21,701 nt of DNA from a virus: the IMG/VR virus record IMGVR_UViG_3300029319_000516, positions 2,063 to 23,763 of that record; one strand, written 5' to 3'. Positions 6,806 to 20,617 of the stretch are shown here, one piece after another (the first letter of the stretch is position 1; every line of letters begins with the position of its first letter). Made by a program: the position numbers and the translations under genes. The notes beneath the pieces are model-generated. The model saw only the letters and a list, made by a program, of their open reading frames with translations. It was not told the DNA's origin and made no database searches.

Positions 6806-8680
6806 CTATACACTTATAACCCCTAAGTTTTGACTAAACGCTGAAGGCAAGTTTGCTAATGCTGCCAACTCTTCTTCGTCGCCACCTTGAGCCAATAGAT
6901 TTAAATATTGCTCTAGGGTTATTGGGTCTATCTGAGCGAAGTTCTGAAACTCAGGAACACCTGATGCCCCTATTGTTGCAAGTAAGTCTTGCTGTGCTTG
7001 TCCTGACCTAGCAGCAACGGCTTCTGCATCTGTTTCTAGTCTCTGCTTTTCAGATTGTAACCTTTGTTCAGCTGCTGCAATTTCATCCAATGCTTGCTGT
7101 GCGTTAAATAAATCCACCTGTGCTTTTTGTTCATCGAAAGCTGCTTGAGAACCAGTTAAGTCATCAAGCCCATAGAAAGATGCGTTGTTAATGTCTTCAA
7201 CAAGCTGTTGCGCTGCTGTCTCAATCTCTGAACGCTTGGCTGCTAAGTCTGCAAGACGAGCATCTACTTGTTCGAGGCCCGCAGTAATCTCACCACCTAT
7301 GTTGCCAACTCTGCCACCAGAGAACTTAGCAAGCTCTTGCTGAAGTTTTTGTAAATCTGTTTGTCTGCCAGTTATAGCGTCTTCGTCTGATAGAGCAATG
7401 TCGCCAATACCTGTGCCAGCTGTTTGTACCCTTGAAAGAATATCGTCTAGTGCGGTTTGTCTTTCGCCCTGTAAACCAGCCAACGCAGTTTCTGCGTCTG
7501 TAATAGCGCCTGTAGCTCCTGAGAAATCAAATGGTAATTCGGATGAGAACCCAGCAATTTCATTTTTAAGGTCACGTATTTGGTCATCAATACTGTCTAG
7601 GATGGCAGCGCTAAACATATTGCCACCTTCGGCAGCTTGCTCAACGTTACCAGCTTGAGATAAGAAGTTTGCTTTTGCGTTTTCTAAACGTGCAAGCTCT
7701 GCAACTCTTTCGCTTTGTAGGTCTTTAACGTCGCCTAGAACGTCTTGTAGTTCGCCTAGCTGGTTGCCAAAGTTAAAGCCAAGCTCTGAAGAGAATCTTC
7801 CAGCCTGTCTTTGCCTGTCTTCGATGTCATCAATAAGAGATTCAATGCCAGCTTCGTCTGCGATTCCCAGATTATCGAGCCTGTCAAAGTAGCTATCGAC
7901 GTCAGTATAAAGTGTGTCACCAAATGTGCTGATTCTATCAAGCTCTGTTTGTCTTTGACCTTTAAGGTCTGCAAGACCAGCGGTTAGTGTGTCGTATTGG
8001 TTTTGGAAGTTAGAGAAACCCCCTGGCATAAACTGACCCATGATGTCAGACGAAAATCCTTGCTTTTGCAAGTTAAGGTCTGACAACTGTTTCTCTAGCT
8101 GGTTCATAGATGCAAGGTCTGCAATTCCTAGCTGACCCAATGTAACGCCCATGCCACCTAAACCTTGGTTCAAGCTTTGACCAAAGTCTGTAATACGTTG
8201 TTCTTCTGCTGCTCTGTCTGCTTTTAACTGGTTAAGAGTGTCAGCAAGACTGCTGATGTTTGATGAGAGAGTATCATAATCAGTTGTAGAAAATTTAGTT
8301 AGGTCTGGGATATTCGTAATGCCAATAGGCCCATACTCTGAGCCGACGGATGACTCGAATATTGGCTTGTCTATATCTGTATCAAGGTTGCCCAAAGCAG
8401 TAGCGAGGTCACTTATTTGTGGGGAGTACACATCAAAGATGTTCTCGTTTACATCTGTCGTCGTGGGGTCATCATACAAGTCAGATATGCCCGTGCCAGA
8501 AAGCGCACTCGAAAGAGTGTTATATTGGCTCTGAAGACCGCCAAGTGCCGTGTTAAATGTATCTACGGCAGTGTTGTAAGCTTGAGCTTGCTCGCCGTAT
8601 TTCTTTTCTGTTTCTTCCCTGATTGCTTTCTTTTCAGCTGTGTAATCAGGTGGTGCTGGTGGATTTCCGCCTTTAGACAT
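6806..8680 (-). CDS. Coiled-coil virion protein with tandem repeats of about 82 residues, 624 residues
   Basis: The N-terminus (MSKGGNPPAPPDYTAEKKAI) is Pro-rich, and the rest is almost entirely helical, rich in Leu, Asp, Gln, Glu and Ala. From residue about 135 to 500 the chain is built of four to five degenerate repeats: a helix ending in an (A/G/S)xR motif (Arg at 156, 243, 325, 407 and 483), a short loop, a second Leu/Asp-rich helix, then a (G/R)FSS(D/E)-type turn (Phe at 209, 296, 378 and, as FSGG, 453). Spacing is 75-87 residues throughout. The C-terminal 60 residues are acidic with LAxLANLPSAF. I do not recognise a named family; a rod-like internal virion or tail-core role is inferred from the downstream virion genes. 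A strong ribosome binding site (GGGAGG) precedes the start, 5 bases after the upstream stop. Confidence 0.75.
   Translation of the reverse strand: MSKGGNPPAPPDYTAEKKAIREETEKKYGEQAQAYNTAVDTFNTALGGLQSQYNTLSSALSGTGISDLYDDPTTTDVNENIFDVYSPQISDLATALGNLDTDIDKPIFESSVGSEYGPIGITNIPDLTKFSTTDYDTLSSNISSLADTLNQLKADRAAEEQRITDFGQSLNQGLGGMGVTLGQLGIADLASMNQLEKQLSDLNLQKQGFSSDIMGQFMPGGFSNFQNQYDTLTAGLADLKGQRQTELDRISTFGDTLYTDVDSYFDRLDNLGIADEAGIESLIDDIEDRQRQAGRFSSELGFNFGNQLGELQDVLGDVKDLQSERVAELARLENAKANFLSQAGNVEQAAEGGNMFSAAILDSIDDQIRDLKNEIAGFSSELPFDFSGATGAITDAETALAGLQGERQTALDDILSRVQTAGTGIGDIALSDEDAITGRQTDLQKLQQELAKFSGGRVGNIGGEITAGLEQVDARLADLAAKRSEIETAAQQLVEDINNASFYGLDDLTGSQAAFDEQKAQVDLFNAQQALDEIAAAEQRLQSEKQRLETDAEAVAARSGQAQQDLLATIGASGVPEFQNFAQIDPITLEQYLNLLAQGGDEEELAALANLPSAFSQNLGVISV
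7181..8278 (-). repeat. Protein-level tandem repeat region, 4-5 units of about 246 bases
   Basis: This stretch encodes residues about 135-500 of the 624-residue virion protein. The repeat is visible in protein (recurring LxxLxxxRxxEL, LGIAD/IALSDED, GFSSEL/RFSSEL/KFSGG) but the DNA has diverged, so it is an old duplication rather than a recent slippage product. Unit starts are near residues 135, 229, 308, 391 and 463. Confidence 0.6.
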
Positions 8681-8685
8681 TTTTT

Positions 8686-9114
8686 TTAGGCCTCCCTCTT
8701 TTGCGTTTTATACCATCTTTCGGATTCTTCTTTGAGGATACCGTAGACGACTCCATCTTCGCTGCCGTGATAGTTACGTAGTCGTCCTTCTTCCTTGAAA
8801 CCAAGCGCCTCAAGAAGTCTACGAGATTTTTTATTTGATTCTTTAGCCAACGCAGACATCCTAATACAACCGCAAGTAACCCACGTATAGTGGAAGAGAA
8901 TACGGAGTATACGCTTTTGCCACATACGAGCATTGGTCGATACAACACTGACGTGAATATCGTTTTTAGTCCACTCGCTAAAGATGACTGCACCGATAAG
9001 TTTGTCGTTGAGTTCAAATCCAAAACATTGAGGGCTGTTCCAAGTAATCCCTTCAAGGTGCTTACTAGCCCATTTTGAAATTCTTTCATTATCATGCGTT
9101 ATTACCTTTATCAT
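8686..9114 (-). CDS. GNAT-like N-acetyltransferase protein
   Basis: At 142 residues this has the layout of a single GNAT (Gcn5-related acetyltransferase) domain. The N-terminal part (ISKWASKHL) leads to beta strands FGFELNDKLIGAVIF and IHVSVVS. The C-terminal half has the well-preserved motif-B block NKKSRRLLEALGFKEEGRLR followed by a final strand (GVVYGILKEE). The acetyl-CoA loop, usually Q/RxxGxG/A, is not recognisable: the corresponding segment is NARMWQKRILRIL. It may therefore be a divergent or non-acetylating member. GNAT-like genes recur among phage structural genes, but substrate and role are unknown to me. It follows the fibre gene by 5 bases with a weak ribosome binding site, suggesting translation coupled to that gene. 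Confidence 0.75.
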   Translation of the reverse strand: MIKVITHDNERISKWASKHLEGITWNSPQCFGFELNDKLIGAVIFSEWTKNDIHVSVVSTNARMWQKRILRILFHYTWVTCGCIRMSALAKESNKKSRRLLEALGFKEEGRLRNYHGSEDGVVYGILKEESERWYKTQKREA

Positions 9115-9119
9115 ACATA

Positions 9120-10682
9120 TTAACTCGCAATCACACTTACAGCCATAGTTACTTCGAGTACACTTGCCGAAGAGTTATTGGTTACAATAAATTCTATTTT
9201 CTTTGATGCGGTAGAAGCATCTATTTCAATCGGTGTTCCCAACGCTGTTTCAGAAGGTGTGGAGCTAGCACTTAGTGTGCTACCCAAACCAACGCCATCT
9301 ACAGATATTTGCACACTACAAGTACCTGACGTGGTTCTGATTGCGATGCCGTCTATTCTAATCTTTTGTTTAAATATTCTTTTTACGCCGAACGTTGTGT
9401 TTGTAGGCGTTGCTACTTCAGTAAAGAAACTGTCAGTAGAAAGAACGGTAGGAAGTTGTGTGGAAGGCAACCTACCAGTTGAGTCGAGAGACGCCACACC
9501 GTTTGCTGCACCTTTCTGAGTTACTGGAACAACGGAGGAAAGGTCGACTGTTCCATACTCAAGAGCCGTCCCTGTACCATTTACCTTCACAAACTGACTT
9601 GCGTTAGCTGATGTAAAGGTCGGGAGAGATGATTCAGGAGACGTCTTTAAAAACTGCGTACCATCAAAAAACTTCAGCTGATTTGGTGTTTGTGATGTAT
9701 CAAGAAACAAATCACCAGTTGCTGGGCTTGTTGGAGTGGAGCTAGACACTGTAAGTTTAGCTTTTGCAGTAAGGGCTGCTGACAAACCATTTACTTTTGC
9801 TTGTTCAATGGCGTTGTTGTCTATTTTAATTTTAGCTAGTTGTATTAGACCACTGTCTGTGTGAACAAAGTCTTGCTCAAACATTTGACCTGTAACAGCT
9901 TGAACAGATGTGTTCTCAACTGTAATAATTGTTACAGTGTTTCCTGATGCAACAGCTGAGTTGAACGTCACAGTATTTGTTGTTGCAGATGTGGTGTAGT
10001 CATTTGCACCACCTTCACGCATTAAAATACCGTTTTTATAAACTTGTAGTCTTGATGTTGAGTCGTGAACAAAAGCAAACACAGCTTGGCTGCCTGTTGT
10101 TACAGTGTCCGTTCTTGTAAATCCTGTTATAGCTGTTGACCTAATCTTGTAGATAGAAACAACATCAGCATTAGCTAAAGCACTGTTAAATGTCACCGCA
10201 CCATTGCTACTAGAACCAGCAGTTGGGCTGCTAGTGTAATCAAATGATGAGCCTGTTCTTTTCAGGATGCCGTTTACATATACAAGAAGTTCGTCTGTAG
10301 CTGCGTGAGCATAGTCAATAACTGTTGTTGTAGTGCCTGATATAACAGTGTCTTGCCTTGAGTGAATGATTGGAGCCCCAATCTCACCAACAGTTGCACC
10401 CGCTGCACCCCGTAATTCTGCTGCCGAAACAAGTGTTATATACCCAGTTGTGTCATCTGCGTATGTTCCGACTCTGTATTGGATGTCGCCACTTGCGTCT
10501 TTTCTAAACTCGATTGGGCCTTGCCATTCCCCTGTGCTACTAAAAATTGTTTGTAGCAATTCACCGAGAGTATTATCGCCTAGTTCTGCTGCATTTAAGT
10601 AGCGAAATAAATTCTCAAATTCTGTATTAATGTTTCCAGAAGAGCCGTAGTTCTGCGGAAACTGTTGTCTAATTCTTGCCAT
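9120..10682 (-). CDS. Tail fibre protein with repeated beta domains, 520 residues
   Basis: The N-terminal ~100 residues are probably the tail-binding part (RQQFPQNYGSSGNINTEF, then a short helical segment). Residues about 112-180 and 193-256 are two copies of a domain with the signature LxVYxNGIxxxxG..xDYT...VTFNSA, typical of fibre-shaft domains related to the T7 gp17 family. Residues about 310-410 contain phrases frequent in phage fibres (TGDLFLDTS, QLKFFDG, GVASLDSTGRLPSTQLP). The last 80 residues form an all-beta domain (RIDGIAIRT to the end) likely to be the distal tip. It overlaps the nozzle gene by one base (TAATG), so the fibre is expressed with the nozzle it may attach to. Receptor and partner cannot be read from sequence. 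Confidence 0.85.
   Translation of the reverse strand: MARIRQQFPQNYGSSGNINTEFENLFRYLNAAELGDNTLGELLQTIFSSTGEWQGPIEFRKDASGDIQYRVGTYADDTTGYITLVSAAELRGAAGATVGEIGAPIIHSRQDTVISGTTTTVIDYAHAATDELLVYVNGILKRTGSSFDYTSSPTAGSSSNGAVTFNSALANADVVSIYKIRSTAITGFTRTDTVTTGSQAVFAFVHDSTSRLQVYKNGILMREGGANDYTTSATTNTVTFNSAVASGNTVTIITVENTSVQAVTGQMFEQDFVHTDSGLIQLAKIKIDNNAIEQAKVNGLSAALTAKAKLTVSSSTPTSPATGDLFLDTSQTPNQLKFFDGTQFLKTSPESSLPTFTSANASQFVKVNGTGTALEYGTVDLSSVVPVTQKGAANGVASLDSTGRLPSTQLPTVLSTDSFFTEVATPTNTTFGVKRIFKQKIRIDGIAIRTTSGTCSVQISVDGVGLGSTLSASSTPSETALGTPIEIDASTASKKIEFIVTNNSSASVLEVTMAVSVIAS
9915..10349 (-). repeat. Two tandem fibre-shaft domains (protein level)
   Basis: Residues about 112-180 and 193-256 of the fibre protein align with each other: YVNGILKRTGSSFDYT with YKNGILMREGGANDYT, and VTFNSALANADVVSI with VTFNSAVASGNTVTI. 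A looser third relative lies in the 155-residue protein encoded at 18863-19330 (VSVNGVTQAPDVAYTVSGS). The DNA copies are diverged. Confidence 0.7.
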
Positions 10683-16427: not shown

Positions 16428-16811
16428 TTATGGCTTTGTAGGCCATTTTACTTTCTCCAGACTATCGTATGTTTTTGTAATGTCACGTAAATCCTGACGA
16501 TACTTCTTTTGTGCATCTGTCATTGTAAGGTCAGAGCTTGCCCACCAGTCTGTTTCTGCAAGCCTCATGTTTCGTTCTGCACGTAAAAGCTTCATGGGCT
16601 CTGCTGCTACCAGCTTGTCCTTTTCTGCCTTTACCTCGTCCCAAGTAACACCAAAGTCTTTTGGGTCGGTGCTTTCTATGGCGGTTCCGTTTTCGTCTGC
16701 GCCAGTTATTTTTACAAACATCTTCTCGAACTCAGCTTTAGATGTAGGCTCGCCACGCATTGCCCATTCTTCGATTCCGAGAGACGCTAGTGCTTGTGCT
16801 ATGTCAGTCAT
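16428..16811 (-). CDS. Phage tail assembly chaperone-like protein (Phage_tail_APC type), 127 residues
   Basis: The C-terminal block LRAERNMRLAETDWWASSDL followed by MTDAQKKYRQDLRDIT is the recognisable signature of the Phage_tail_APC family (RAERNxxLxxTDWW...YRQxLRD). The N-terminal ~70 residues are acidic and mixed (FEKMFVKITGADENGTAIES, DFGVTWDEVKAEKDKLV). In phages with such genes this protein usually sits next to fibre genes and is thought to help fold or attach fibres; here it directly follows the array of small appendage proteins. It has an excellent ribosome binding site (AAAGGAGG). Confidence 0.8.
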   Translation of the reverse strand: MTDIAQALASLGIEEWAMRGEPTSKAEFEKMFVKITGADENGTAIESTDPKDFGVTWDEVKAEKDKLVAAEPMKLLRAERNMRLAETDWWASSDLTMTDAQKKYRQDLRDITKTYDSLEKVKWPTKP

Positions 16812-16822
16812 ATTGCCTCCTT

Positions 16823-17341
16823 TTAAGCTTTAAATTCAATAAGTGTAATCCCACCACCAGAGGTGCTTCCGTAATGGTTAATAAAACTTCCGTTCCATAT
16901 TAGGGATTGAACTGTGTAAGTCACAACTCCTGTTGTGTTTGGCGAATCTACGCCACCAAGATATATTGGTGTATCATGTTCATTATCTGCATTTCTAACT
17001 TGCATAGTTTCTACATTACTAGCGCTGTTCCAAACAAGAGTTTGAGTACTGCCAATAATTCTTGCCAATCTGATACCACCCCTGATTGGGCTACCGCTAC
17101 CAGAAATACGGACATGACCACTAACTGCAAAGTATATCTTGCTGCTTGAAGAGGTTGGAGTAATGTCAAGAGTGTGAGCAGTATTTGTCCAGCTCTGTGT
17201 AGTGTTCTGAGTCTGAGCGACTCCACCAGTATGTACTAACTGAATAACAGACCCATTTATCATATTCGTGTGGTCTAAAGCTGGTAACCCAGCATTTGTG
17301 ACTGAAGATATTGCTGCGTTATTTAGTTTTGTTAATGCCAT
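16823..17341 (-). CDS. Small beta-rich appendage protein, array member 4, 172 residues
   Basis: The protein begins with MALTKLNNAAISSVTNAGLP and goes on to SVIQLVHTGG, LDITPTSSSSKIYFAVSGHV, a GIRLARIIGSTQTLV segment and a C-terminal GGGITLIEFKA. The order (V/I)IQ(V/L)V, then ITP...SK(I/V), then RLxR, then a final apolar strand, is shared with the proteins at 18338-18862 and 17862-18341, so they are paralogues. The composition (Ser/Thr/Asn/Gly, alternating strands, no Lys-rich helices) fits a compact beta-sandwich adhesin tip. It overlaps the upstream stop by one base (TAATG). Confidence 0.7.
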   Translation of the reverse strand: MALTKLNNAAISSVTNAGLPALDHTNMINGSVIQLVHTGGVAQTQNTTQSWTNTAHTLDITPTSSSSKIYFAVSGHVRISGSGSPIRGGIRLARIIGSTQTLVWNSASNVETMQVRNADNEHDTPIYLGGVDSPNTTGVVTYTVQSLIWNGSFINHYGSTSGGGITLIEFKA

Positions 17342-17865
17342 TAAGAATTTTCCCCCAACTTAGTGAAGCCAACATAAATTTTGCTAGCAGTTGCTGGATT
17401 TGCAGACTGTATTTGAAATCTAAGTTTTACGTTACTGGTGCTGTTTACGTCCATAAGATAAAAAGCCATTGCAGATATTTGTGGGTCAGACGATGTGCGG
17501 TTGCCTCCCGTTGCTGCTGGCCCGTCAGAAAAATTAGCACCACCGTCTGTAGAAATTTGACTTACTACAGCGACGTGACCGTCATTGCCGTTGTGGACAA
17601 AAAATGCGTGGTAATCAAGTCTCCATATTCCTGTGTTTGGGAATGTAAAGACACCAGAAGACTCGGACATTCCAGCGCCAAAATTTGCAGCGTTTGGTTC
17701 ATTTGATACAGCCCATCCTGAAGTAATCAATGAAGTGCCTGAACCTCCTTGAGTATTATTATTTTCCCAAAAGTATACGTCTAATGATTTTAAACCCAAG
17801 TCTGATGTTGAAGGCGTGTTGCCATTCGCTAACTTGATTGCATCAACTTTAATTACTGAACTCAT
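17341..17865 (-). CDS. Small beta-rich appendage protein, C1q-like, array member 3, 174 residues
   Basis: The start SSVIKVDAIKLANGNTPSTS is of the short attachment type common at the front of marine phage fibre proteins. The body contains SSGVFTFPNTGIWRLDYHAF, a pattern (GxFTFPxTGxYxxxxxxxF) frequent in C1q/TNF-like jelly-roll domains, followed by further strands and a C-terminal SKIYVGFTKLG. It is less similar to its three neighbours than they are to each other. A trimeric receptor-binding tip is the likely role, by fold analogy. It overlaps its upstream neighbour by four bases (ATGA) and the next gene by one. Confidence 0.68.
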   Translation of the reverse strand: MSSVIKVDAIKLANGNTPSTSDLGLKSLDVYFWENNNTQGGSGTSLITSGWAVSNEPNAANFGAGMSESSGVFTFPNTGIWRLDYHAFFVHNGNDGHVAVVSQISTDGGANFSDGPAATGGNRTSSDPQISAMAFYLMDVNSTSNVKLRFQIQSANPATASKIYVGFTKLGENS

Positions 17866-18341
17866 TGTGCAATCTCCATTAAAAGCATTGTAGATATAGA
17901 GTTGTCATGCTGGTAGTACAAATCAGCAGAACTGTCGGTTAATCTACCTTGAGTTTTATAAGTTGTTTCGTTTGTTGTACTAGGACTATCCAGTACATCA
18001 AAAGTTGCAAACGTACCCCTTCTATGGTCAGTACTCATGCCAGCAATAATATTGTTCGCTTGTTGAGCTATTTCGGTTGAACCCCTCATTAATCTTGTAA
18101 GAGCGACTCGTTCAGCTGTAGTTGTAGTTCTAAAAGTAAAATATTGTTTTACCATTACCAACACTTTGCTATTTGAATATTTTGGCGTTATAGCGCAAGT
18201 CAAATTTGTATCAGTAAAAGTTGTTCCGCCTTGTGAAAACTGTGTAGTAGAATCGTTTTGAACAACCTGAATTATGTGACCAGGGCTGTGAACAACTGTT
18301 CCCAAGTTAGGCTTGAGATTGTCTACGAATAACGTACTCAT
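17862..18341 (-). CDS. Small beta-rich appendage protein, array member 2, 159 residues
   Basis: I start at MSTLFVDNLKPNLGTVVHSP (ATG at 18339-18341), which has GAGGAG upstream and overlaps the previous stop by four bases (ATGA); a start 16 codons further upstream would overlap the previous gene by 52 bases and gives an unlikely N-terminus (MSILWWGISN). Then follow GHIIQVVQND, CAITPKYSNSKVLVMVKQYF, RVALTRLMRGSTEIA and a terminal TMLLMEIAQ. The motifs align with members 1 and 4. A virion adhesin or decoration role is inferred from composition and neighbours. Confidence 0.7.
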   Translation of the reverse strand: MSTLFVDNLKPNLGTVVHSPGHIIQVVQNDSTTQFSQGGTTFTDTNLTCAITPKYSNSKVLVMVKQYFTFRTTTTAERVALTRLMRGSTEIAQQANNIIAGMSTDHRRGTFATFDVLDSPSTTNETTYKTQGRLTDSSADLYYQHDNSISTMLLMEIAQ

Positions 18342-18862
18342 TGCCCAATCTCCTCTAAAATTAGAAATGCCCCACCATAAAATTGACATTGTCCAGTGTT
18401 AGCCCTTATCTGTATTGTAAAAGTTGTGGCTGAAGTAGTGTTAGGTGAATGAATCCAAATAAAACCAGCTGGAACTGGAATATGATTATTTACAGCACTT
18501 GTTCTATATTGTAGGTACTGGCCTGTCCCACTATCTTGAGAGCCATTATAATCAGAAAGACCACTGCCATCACGCACTAATCTGAATCTATTGTTAACAG
18601 AAGAACCAGTATGGTTTGAATAATAGACTCCATTAAATGTTATTTTAATTTTACTGGTTGCAAATTGCGGAGTGATTGTTTGAGATATTAAATCAGTGTA
18701 ACTCCCAGTAGTAAAACTTGTAGAGCTTGATGATTGTGCTTCAACAACTTGAATAACATGACCAGGAGCATGCAAAGTTTGCCCACTACCAATCAAAATT
18801 TTATTGGCGTTGCCACCAGACGTTGGGCCTTTGATTGTTTGTACTGTTAGCTCTGATGCCAT
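18338..18862 (-). CDS. Small beta-rich appendage protein, array member 1, 174 residues
   Basis: The N-terminus MASELTVQTIKGPTSGGNAN is again a short attachment-type peptide, followed by GHVIQVVEAQSSSSTSFTTG, ISQTITPQFATSKIKITFNG, RFRLVRDGSGLSDYNGSQDS and a terminal GGAFLILEEIGQ. The PGH(V/I)IQVV block is nearly identical to that of member 2, while the remainder has diverged, as expected for a conserved stem with a variable binding part. The ATG follows the upstream TAG with no gap, so its ribosome binding site lies inside the upstream gene. Confidence 0.7.
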   Translation of the reverse strand: MASELTVQTIKGPTSGGNANKILIGSGQTLHAPGHVIQVVEAQSSSSTSFTTGSYTDLISQTITPQFATSKIKITFNGVYYSNHTGSSVNNRFRLVRDGSGLSDYNGSQDSGTGQYLQYRTSAVNNHIPVPAGFIWIHSPNTTSATTFTIQIRANTGQCQFYGGAFLILEEIGQ

Positions 18863-19330
18863 CTATACCACCGTAAATGTCCCATTAATTGTTAATGGTT
18901 GCGTAATTGTTATTGGCCCAGCAACAAAAGCGTTCTGATTGGCTGCAACTGTTACCGAGTTATTTAAAGAGTTTATATTAGTTCGTATGGGTGTGTCGTC
19001 CAAGACGAGAGTCGAGGCAAGTTTTGCTGGGGTTACCGTGCCGTCTGCAACTGTGCCAGCGTTGAAGACGTCGCCCATTCCTACAATGTAATCAACTACG
19101 TCTGTGCCAAGAACTAGGTTTGCTGTGAATGTAATTGTTGAGCCTGACACTGTGTACGCTACGTCTGGGGCTTGCGTTACACCATTTACCGAAACGATAA
19201 GACGAGTGCTGCTGCCTGGGTCGTATGCTGCACCGTTGAATAAGAGGCTGTAAGATGCACCACCGTTTGGGGTGATGTTGTCTAGTTTTTTGAAATCTGA
19301 ACTTAGGGGCTCACGTCCTATGTATGGCAT
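18863..19330 (-). CDS. Fibre-type protein, 155 residues
   Basis: It opens with MPYIGREPLSSDFKKLDNIT, a tail-attachment-like start, then a beta domain (STRLIVSVNGVTQAPDVAYT, GSTITFTANLVLGTDVVDYI) related to the repeated shaft domains of the fibre at 9120-10682. The end (VTVAANQNAFVAGPITITQP, then LTINGTFTVV) is a phrase that closes many marine phage fibre proteins. At 155 residues it is a short, complete fibre or a connector carrying other adhesins. It overlaps the upstream stop by one base (TAATG). Confidence 0.78.
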   Translation of the reverse strand: MPYIGREPLSSDFKKLDNITPNGGASYSLLFNGAAYDPGSSTRLIVSVNGVTQAPDVAYTVSGSTITFTANLVLGTDVVDYIVGMGDVFNAGTVADGTVTPAKLASTLVLDDTPIRTNINSLNNSVTVAANQNAFVAGPITITQPLTINGTFTVV

Positions 19331-19504: not shown

Positions 19505-20617
19505 TTATAACTCCGAATTAAAATCAAAACTAAGTTGGTTGGTGTTAGTACCCATATCTATATACGCACCGTCACCACCGCCACCGCCAGATGTACTTAG
19601 AACCCTAAACCTAAAACCATCATTATTGATAAATTCTTCTACAATATCACTACTGTTAGCATTGTGTGTAGCGTCTACAGCCCCTCCAAAAACAACTTGG
19701 ATTGCTCCAGTTGTGCTGTTTCCCCCATACGTTGTAATGCTAGGGGATGCTCTCATTGTGGTTGTAAAACGGTGTCCAGCTGTAAAGTGACTATTTCTTA
19801 TCATACCAAGTAAAATACCCTCATCACCACCATCTCGTCCAAAATCTTGAAAATAGCGTTGGCAAAGCGCAAGCTCTTCTCCAAAGCTTCGATGCTCAAA
19901 GTCCGTGGCGGTGTCGCCTATTTCCATTTGAACTCCTGTGATTTGCCACGTTGCTCCAGAAGTTGTGGCAAGAGCCGTGGAAGCCCCAGTAACCATGCTC
20001 TTAGAGCTACCTGAACTATTCGAGGAACCCCATGTCGTGCCTTGTGCTGTACGAGCAGCAGCAACTGAACCAAACCCCCAATATATTGTAACAGCAGCAG
20101 TATTATTAGTATTAAATGTTCCCGCAGTAGGTGCTTCTATCTTAATTTTTTTGTGTTCCCAAGTGTTGGCAGAACTAATTGTATACAACTTTCCAATATC
20201 AAAAGCATTTGGTGAGTCTGCCAAAATAAGAGGAAAATCCCCTGTTTGATTTGACTTTACCCAAAAAGAAATAGTGCAACTTTTAGCTGTTGATGAGCCC
20301 CAATTAAGATGAGCCATATTCTGCCCTTCTATTCTTTGCAGAAAAGCAGAGGCATTTGTGCCTGTAAGAGTGTGTGCGCTATTTCTAACCATTTTAAATG
20401 ATTTATAGTGACCTGTAGGCGCATCACTTTCTTGAGTTTGAGTAGAGTTATCTGGATATCCACCAAACCGACTAAGAGCAAACCTATCCAACAGGTAATT
20501 ATCAGTCGTGGGTGTAGTGCCTGTAACACCCCTCTGCGAAATTTTCATAGCACCATTGATGACAAGATTTCTGCGTCCAAGGTTGCCTTGTGGCCCTATG
20601 ATTTTACTTCTTGGCAT
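19505..20617 (-). CDS. Tail fibre / receptor-binding-type protein, 370 residues
   Basis: RRNLVINGAMKISQRG near the N-terminus and ELALCQRYFQDFG near residue 250 are two hallmarks of a widespread phage fibre family ('NLxINGxMxxxQRG ... LxxCQRYF'). Between them lies a beta-rich region (SCTISFWVKSNQTGDFPLIL, WQITGVQMEIGDTATDFEHR) of the carbohydrate-binding jelly-roll sort. The C-terminal ~110 residues are strand-rich and Gly/Thr/Asn-rich (FRVLSTSGGGGGDGAYIDMG), probably the tip. It overlaps the end of the upstream small gene by 14 bases, with GGAGG upstream of the ATG at long spacing. Binding to host surface glycan is family-level inference. Confidence 0.82.
   Translation of the reverse strand: MPRSKIIGPQGNLGRRNLVINGAMKISQRGVTGTTPTTDNYLLDRFALSRFGGYPDNSTQTQESDAPTGHYKSFKMVRNSAHTLTGTNASAFLQRIEGQNMAHLNWGSSTAKSCTISFWVKSNQTGDFPLILADSPNAFDIGKLYTISSANTWEHKKIKIEAPTAGTFNTNNTAAVTIYWGFGSVAAARTAQGTTWGSSNSSGSSKSMVTGASTALATTSGATWQITGVQMEIGDTATDFEHRSFGEELALCQRYFQDFGRDGGDEGILLGMIRNSHFTAGHRFTTTMRASPSITTYGGNSTTGAIQVVFGGAVDATHNANSSDIVEEFINNDGFRFRVLSTSGGGGGDGAYIDMGTNTNQLSFDFNSEL

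Follow-up and report, generated by a model that had tools for sequence, protein, structure and literature searches.

Four small tandem head genes with position-specific N-terminal tags in an uncultured virus: candidate receptor-binding heads of one fibre-like appendage

How phages of abundant marine bacteria recognise their hosts is poorly known, and the genes concerned are mostly annotated as hypothetical. A 21.7-kb stretch (hereafter the window) of a 23.8-kb uncultured virus record raises this question in compact form: why do four small genes for beta-rich proteins stand in a row behind a fibre-anchor-like gene, and what would give each product its place? The major capsid gene of the window is 77% DNA-identical to its counterpart in Roseobacter phage CRP-810 (described in PMC11288001), and a megablast search of the phage collection returned no other match to the window.

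Gene layout and head families

The cassette comprises the following genes:

18863-19330, minus strand: E155, the "hub", 155 aa, fibre-anchor-like; C-terminal end ...ITQPLTINGTFTVV
18338-18862, minus strand: A, slot 1 head, 174 aa, matching phrog_6942
17862-18341, minus strand: B, slot 2 head, 159 aa, homologous to A and D
17341-17865, minus strand: C, slot 3 head, 174 aa, putatively a divergent C1q-like protein
16823-17341, minus strand: D, slot 4 head, 172 aa, homologous to A and B
16428-16811, minus strand: fibre/tail assembly (chaperone-like) gene, 127 aa, PF16778 and phrog_4912, closing the cassette

An earlier annotation from the letters alone (the sequence-only reading) had placed four head-to-tail genes here, and we confirmed this placement; successive genes overlap by 4, 4 and 1 bases. 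The ORF list starts B at 18389; an ATG at 18341 overlaps the stop of A. The hub stop is followed by the start of A with a gap of 0, as also in close arrays, and 11 bases separate D from the assembly gene. The hub matches a tail fiber N-terminus (phrog_18673, E 5.8e-27). Consistent with the fibre chaperone that the same reading had expected after the array, the assembly gene belongs to Phage_tail_APC (PF16778, E 1.5e-11, 44.4 bits against a cut-off of 26.6) and matches phrog_4912, tail fiber assembly (E 5.4e-14). The further count of at least three larger fibres stood in part: the product of 19505-20617 (370 aa) clearly matches a tail fibre (phrog_4492, E 5.2e-50), that of 9120-10682 (520 aa) does so less strongly (E 3.1e-9 to phrog_1446, minor tail protein; E 3.2e-5 to phrog_14726, tail fiber), and the third, a 280-aa incomplete gene at the window end, had no match in the phrog search.

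Elsewhere in the window, a long frame for a GNAT acetyltransferase (142 aa, phrog_4470) overlaps a second long frame of its strand (positions 8673-9114); this second frame codes for 140 aa and ends in KRKRGRPKK, which we take to be AT-hook-like. G+C content is 38-41% in the head genes versus 45-46% in the hub, assembly, scaffold and capsid genes, and close relatives show a similar trend.

How are the four heads related? A search with A in its own contig recovers both B (E 9.9e-9) and D (E 7.2e-8), and iterated profiles started from A, B or D converge on 111, 112 and 111 ORFs, with 111 common to all; the ORF set of a C profile overlaps this set by only 8. At the sequence level A, B and D have motifs in common beyond chance, including the three blocks named in the sequence-only reading (VIQVV/IIQVV/VIQLV; ITPQFATSK/ITPKYSNSK/ITPTSSSSK; RLVR/RLMR/RLAR), and the FTFPNTG pattern reported for the remaining gene is present in C. 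For profiles we aligned 70 of 82 distinct candidates of A/B/D type (alignment A1) and 20 of 31 slot-3-like ones (A2). In phrog_6942 ("tail fiber protein"), the C-terminal part is hit by A (E 1.1e-8), B (E 6.5e-10) and D (E 3e-7), as well as by 39 of the 70 aligned relatives; B also hits genes annotated as fibres in phages that include P-SSP7, HMO-2011 and MEP402. In the solved 658-aa orf22 (9efk), the last 173 residues are matched by the profile of the 70 relatives (E 2.3e-18); 9efk is absent among the 50 VIA matches listed for A, which is uninformative either way.

In the predicted model of A (pLDDT 82.6), the first 34 residues are without secondary structure and the body resembles the TNF-like lectins PLTL and BC2L-CN (Foldseek E 8.6e-6), with a VIA Z of 14.0 and an rmsd of 2.0 over 123 residues against PLTL. 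A, the one A/B/D member modelled, falls within the TNF jelly rolls by this comparison. Its identity to TNF-like lectins is just 14-17%, and a PDB sequence search at a cut-off of E 1 returned no TNF-like lectin. A TNF-like lectin fold is thus a prediction from the model of A; B and D would share it by homology. The sequence-only reading had let its case hang on A, B and D not having unrelated folds: the three are related at the sequence level, and the structural comparison covers A.

The slot 3 head appears to be of another kind. A PDB search with the profile of the 20 slot-3-like relatives hits C1q chains, and 10 of these 20, the window's C not among them, match Pfam C1q (PF00386). C alone gave no match to a C1q model in Pfam at E up to 1; its body is matched by a profile of the other bodies at E 0.0045. 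Its model is poor (pLDDT 64.7), with C1q heads as the best Foldseek matches and VIA Z up to 11.8. These comparisons point to a divergent C1q-like head, and on the models A and C would both fall in the wider TNF/C1q jelly-roll class. The proposal of related beta-rich heads is upheld to this extent, with a modelled TNF-like lectin fold for A and a C1q-like one for C. That the A/B/D bodies are akin in sequence to C1q-type bodies was considered and rejected, as only the tags align: between the two families the N-terminal 33 columns align (E 4.7e-6, probability 86%) and the bodies do not, so an alike tag fronts two head families.

Relatives of the cassette

Loci were found by scans with the capsid gene (best 80 of 139), A (33) and the hub (19); C alone found no relative in viral contigs, nor did tblastn of A in annotated phages. 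In the closest group the order is hub, A-type, A-type, C1q-type and A-type head (C1q-type in L123), assembly gene and a 79-aa gene. In a second group the hub is 72-77% identical and slot 3 holds an A-type head with the same kind of tag (L127, L129, L131). In L130 (5870-6943), a single 357-aa open frame spans slots 3 and 4 and has the slot-4 tag in its middle, which reflects either a natural fusion or a sequence error. Among the 33 of the best 80 capsid-anchored loci that extend at least 4.6 kb upstream, four carry four heads (two of these, L023 and L042, in another layout), four carry one and 25 carry none; the cassette is thus optional in the phage family of the window. The region fetched from CRP-810 had no match to the head profiles.

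The same cassette is present in a cultured pelagiphage of another phage group and host, Lederberg EXVC029P (MT647605.1; L133 7173-9624 and L134 1-553). Here the hub (gp2), four tagged heads (gp1, MSKIEV; gp71, MGKLKV; gp70, MTSIIKVDQIQ; gp69, MALTRL) and a gene related to the assembly gene (gp68, E 5.8e-12) follow in the same order. All six are annotated "hypothetical protein", and the excerpted text of the genome announcement (PMC7892664) is silent on them.

Other arrangements were also seen. Longer proteins near several arrays bear a C1q-type head, some behind a hub-like anchor. In other phages (L100, L102, L103), at least two hub-plus-head cassettes follow one another, and the order of slot-2-like and slot-3-like tags is reversed. 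In L070 (393-3404), a hub-like gene is followed by genes with SxLxxD-type starts whose bodies match neither head profile and are possibly further kinds of head.

Conserved tags and exchanged bodies

The tags of the window are:

18791-18862, minus strand: slot 1 tag, 24 codons, MASELTVQTIKGPTSGGNANKILI
18276-18341, minus strand: slot 2 tag, 22 codons, MSTLFVDNLKPNLGTVVHSPGH
17833-17865, minus strand: slot 3 tag, 11 codons, MSSVIKVDAIK
17282-17341, minus strand: slot 4 tag, 20 codons, MALTKLNNAAISSVTNAGLP, of which MALTKLN alone is common to all 8 close arrays

In 8 distinct close arrays, mean pairwise identity at slots 1-4 is 93, 77, 93 and 72% for the tags (first 11-24 residues scored) and 29, 29, 25 and 26% for the bodies, while tags of different slots are on average 24% identical (12 arrays). 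Near-duplicates were left out of the identity comparison (L090/L091/L119/L120 of L089; L096/L097/L098/L125 of L009; L092/L118/L126 of L088; L122/L132 of L123; L124 of L012; L128 of L127). In L121 and L123 the slot 4 tag is reduced to MALTKLN. We then asked how well tag and body each identify the slot, using 24 chosen arrays (75 genes) and excluding pairs alike in tag and body (normalised score over 0.7). The nearest tag lay in the same slot for 75 of 75 genes (2000 shuffles: mean 0.31, max 0.55) and the nearest body for 48% (null 0.30, p 0.005). Short conserved starts before divergent bodies, as the sequence-only reading had supposed, find support in these statistics. Free exchange of heads between slots was considered and is not supported, as the bodies keep a weak slot signal.

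The tags are under purifying selection: mean dN is 0.03-0.15 and mean dS 0.40-0.98 (slot 1: 0.03 and 0.47; 28 codons, 6 arrays), which indicates that they are kept as protein and are not merely recent copies.

Bodies, in contrast, change between close relatives, one at a time. L009 and L121 share head 3 alone (98%), L012 and L088 head 2 alone (91%), and L009 and L012 head 4 alone (83%), their remaining heads being 17-40% identical; the window and L099 have only head 2 in common (54%). In five pairs profiled along the DNA, identity is 0.23-0.57 in unshared bodies and 0.93-0.96 in the hub and assembly gene; over the first 33 nt of the head genes it is mostly over 90% (range 0.64-1.00, 20 comparisons), and it drops within or just past the tags. 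Bodies also occur behind other tags: a head body of L116 is 85% identical to an L129 body behind a different tag, and the D body is 58% identical over 137 aa to an L104 head behind another tag. Of 57 body pairs with at least 38% identity over more than 90 residues, the tags of 31 are at most 45% identical, and many of these 31 are near-copies from one group. The slot 3 tag carries a C1q-like head in the closest group and an A/B/D-type head in L127, L129 and L131, and slot 4 of L123 has a C1q-type head behind MALTKLN; the head family thus switches while the tag stays. These alignments indicate that heads are replaced singly and that one tag can carry either head family, in line with the modular exchange first proposed. 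The slot-3 tag of the window has the MSSVIKVDAI of its own group and then, in the next 15 residues, KLANGNTPSTSDLGL as in the second group; it looks hybrid, suggesting an exchange junction inside the tag. Point-mutation hypervariability is an unlikely source of head diversity, since bodies differ at ~70-75% of sites and the hub does not.

A candidate rack of heads and its counterparts

What might the tags be for? The hub is 94-98% identical among 6 close arrays, and over 17 chosen arrays distances between hub C-termini follow those between tags (rho 0.80, Mantel p 0.0005), whereas hub and body distances do not agree (rho -0.15). The assembly gene, taken as a control, also correlates with the tags (0.54-0.60), less than the hub does and with less left once the hub is accounted for: partial rho is 0.73 and 0.79 for hub and tag versus 0.37 and 0.23 for assembly gene and tag (slots 1 and 2; 18 chosen arrays, L128 kept beside L127). 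The tags co-diverge with the hub. This correlation supports hub-tag contact without proving it and is linkage-prone: joint inheritance of hub and tags with swapping of bodies could explain much of it.

We consider it likely that the cassette encodes four receptor-binding heads for one fibre-like appendage, addressed by their tags to sites on the hub. Each head would be a jelly-roll, very likely a trimer, with its binding surface, probably for sugars, in the fast-changing body. The first 7-24 residues would form an address, distinct for each position, that seats the head at one set place on a conserved partner protein, with the C-terminal part of the 155-aa hub as the most likely candidate, while the hub N-terminal domain, which also occurs in larger fibres, would anchor the assembly to the virion and the Phage_tail_APC protein would aid folding or assembly of the heads. 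Because the tag rather than the body would fix position, recombination in or near a tag could change a single head, even to the other family, and leave the other heads undisturbed. We propose more tentatively that this is a four-position rack, in which addresses of about ten residues in fixed order seat two jelly-roll families on one hub, and that it is in circulation among marine phages whose hosts belong to different groups (Roseobacter-phage relatives and a SAR11 phage).

Alternatively, the tags could be orthogonal trimerisation seeds that prevent mixing of co-translated heads, which would then attach to the virion in some other way. Mixing would be a real problem with three of four heads homologous and overlapping genes, and the low identity between slots (24%) suits such a function. 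Yet any orthogonal set would do for this purpose, and phages with different heads retain the same kinds of tag in an unchanged order; moreover, the tags track the hub, and in the fused slots 3 and 4 of L130 tag 4 is internal. We find this explanation unlikely. It is quite improbable that these proteins decorate the capsid or neck rather than serve as tail-fibre heads: the cassette adjoins scaffold and major capsid genes in close relatives, but the domain matches a tail-fibre C-terminus (phrog_6942) and the fibre genes of P-SSP7, HMO-2011 and MEP402, and the array is preceded by a fibre-anchor-like gene and followed by a fibre-assembly gene. Least probable of all is that the tags are conserved merely as homology arms for recombination or gene conversion, which would suit the drop in DNA identity at the tags but not their many silent differences beside few amino-acid changes, a pattern that needs selection at the protein level.

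If the tag-addressed arrangement is true, receptor-binding heads in uncultured marine phages could be found and ordered through a sequence rule given by the tags, changes of attachment by single heads between near-identical phages would be explained, and the tags would amount to a very short docking code of natural origin. The cassette of Lederberg makes the claim testable on an isolate.

In our literature search, we came across no prior account of small slot-tagged heads in marine phages or of TNF-like lectin heads in phages, a result that does not prove their absence. Several known systems share parts of the arrangement. The lectins BC2L-CN and PLTL (PMC12914763) have the fold predicted for A (Z 14.0). 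By sequence, phrog_6942 and orf22 (9efk) contain the same domain, which there ends a long protein and here is a separate short one. A precedent for an N-terminal peptide that binds a TNF/C1q-fold protein may exist in Bacillus spores, with ExsF and the F-Anchor peptide (title of 9h3d). Fibre-chaperone modules of marine Alteromonas phages are known to pass between distant phages (PMC10579305). In pelagiphage-like genomes, C1q-like genes for host recognition vary near the tail fibres, within the metaviromic islands of marine phages; the account given there is of variable C1q proteins and C-termini of fibres, in contrast to the ordered, slot-tagged array found here (PMC3909814).

On our best reading, the cassette would be a miniature counterpart of the branched four-tailspike complexes of Ackermannviridae. 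In phage CBA120, TSP1-4 are four receptor-binding proteins (RBPs) with position-specific conserved N-termini and diverse C-termini, and in this family the same C-terminal module can occur on different TSP types (PMC8432352; further sources on the four tailspikes are PMC8825819 and PMC11414711). At the sequence level, the heads described here likewise combine position-specific N-termini with exchangeable C-termini, their RBP function being putative. They start with tags of 7-24 residues and have no N-terminal XD (T4 gp10-like) domains, so the array may work like the Ackermannviridae complex and is not classed as a member. Ackermannviridae anchors are whole XD domains on large tailspikes, whereas here proteins of 152-217 aa would pair an address of ~7-24 residues with a TNF/C1q jelly-roll; the likeness proposed is one of logic.
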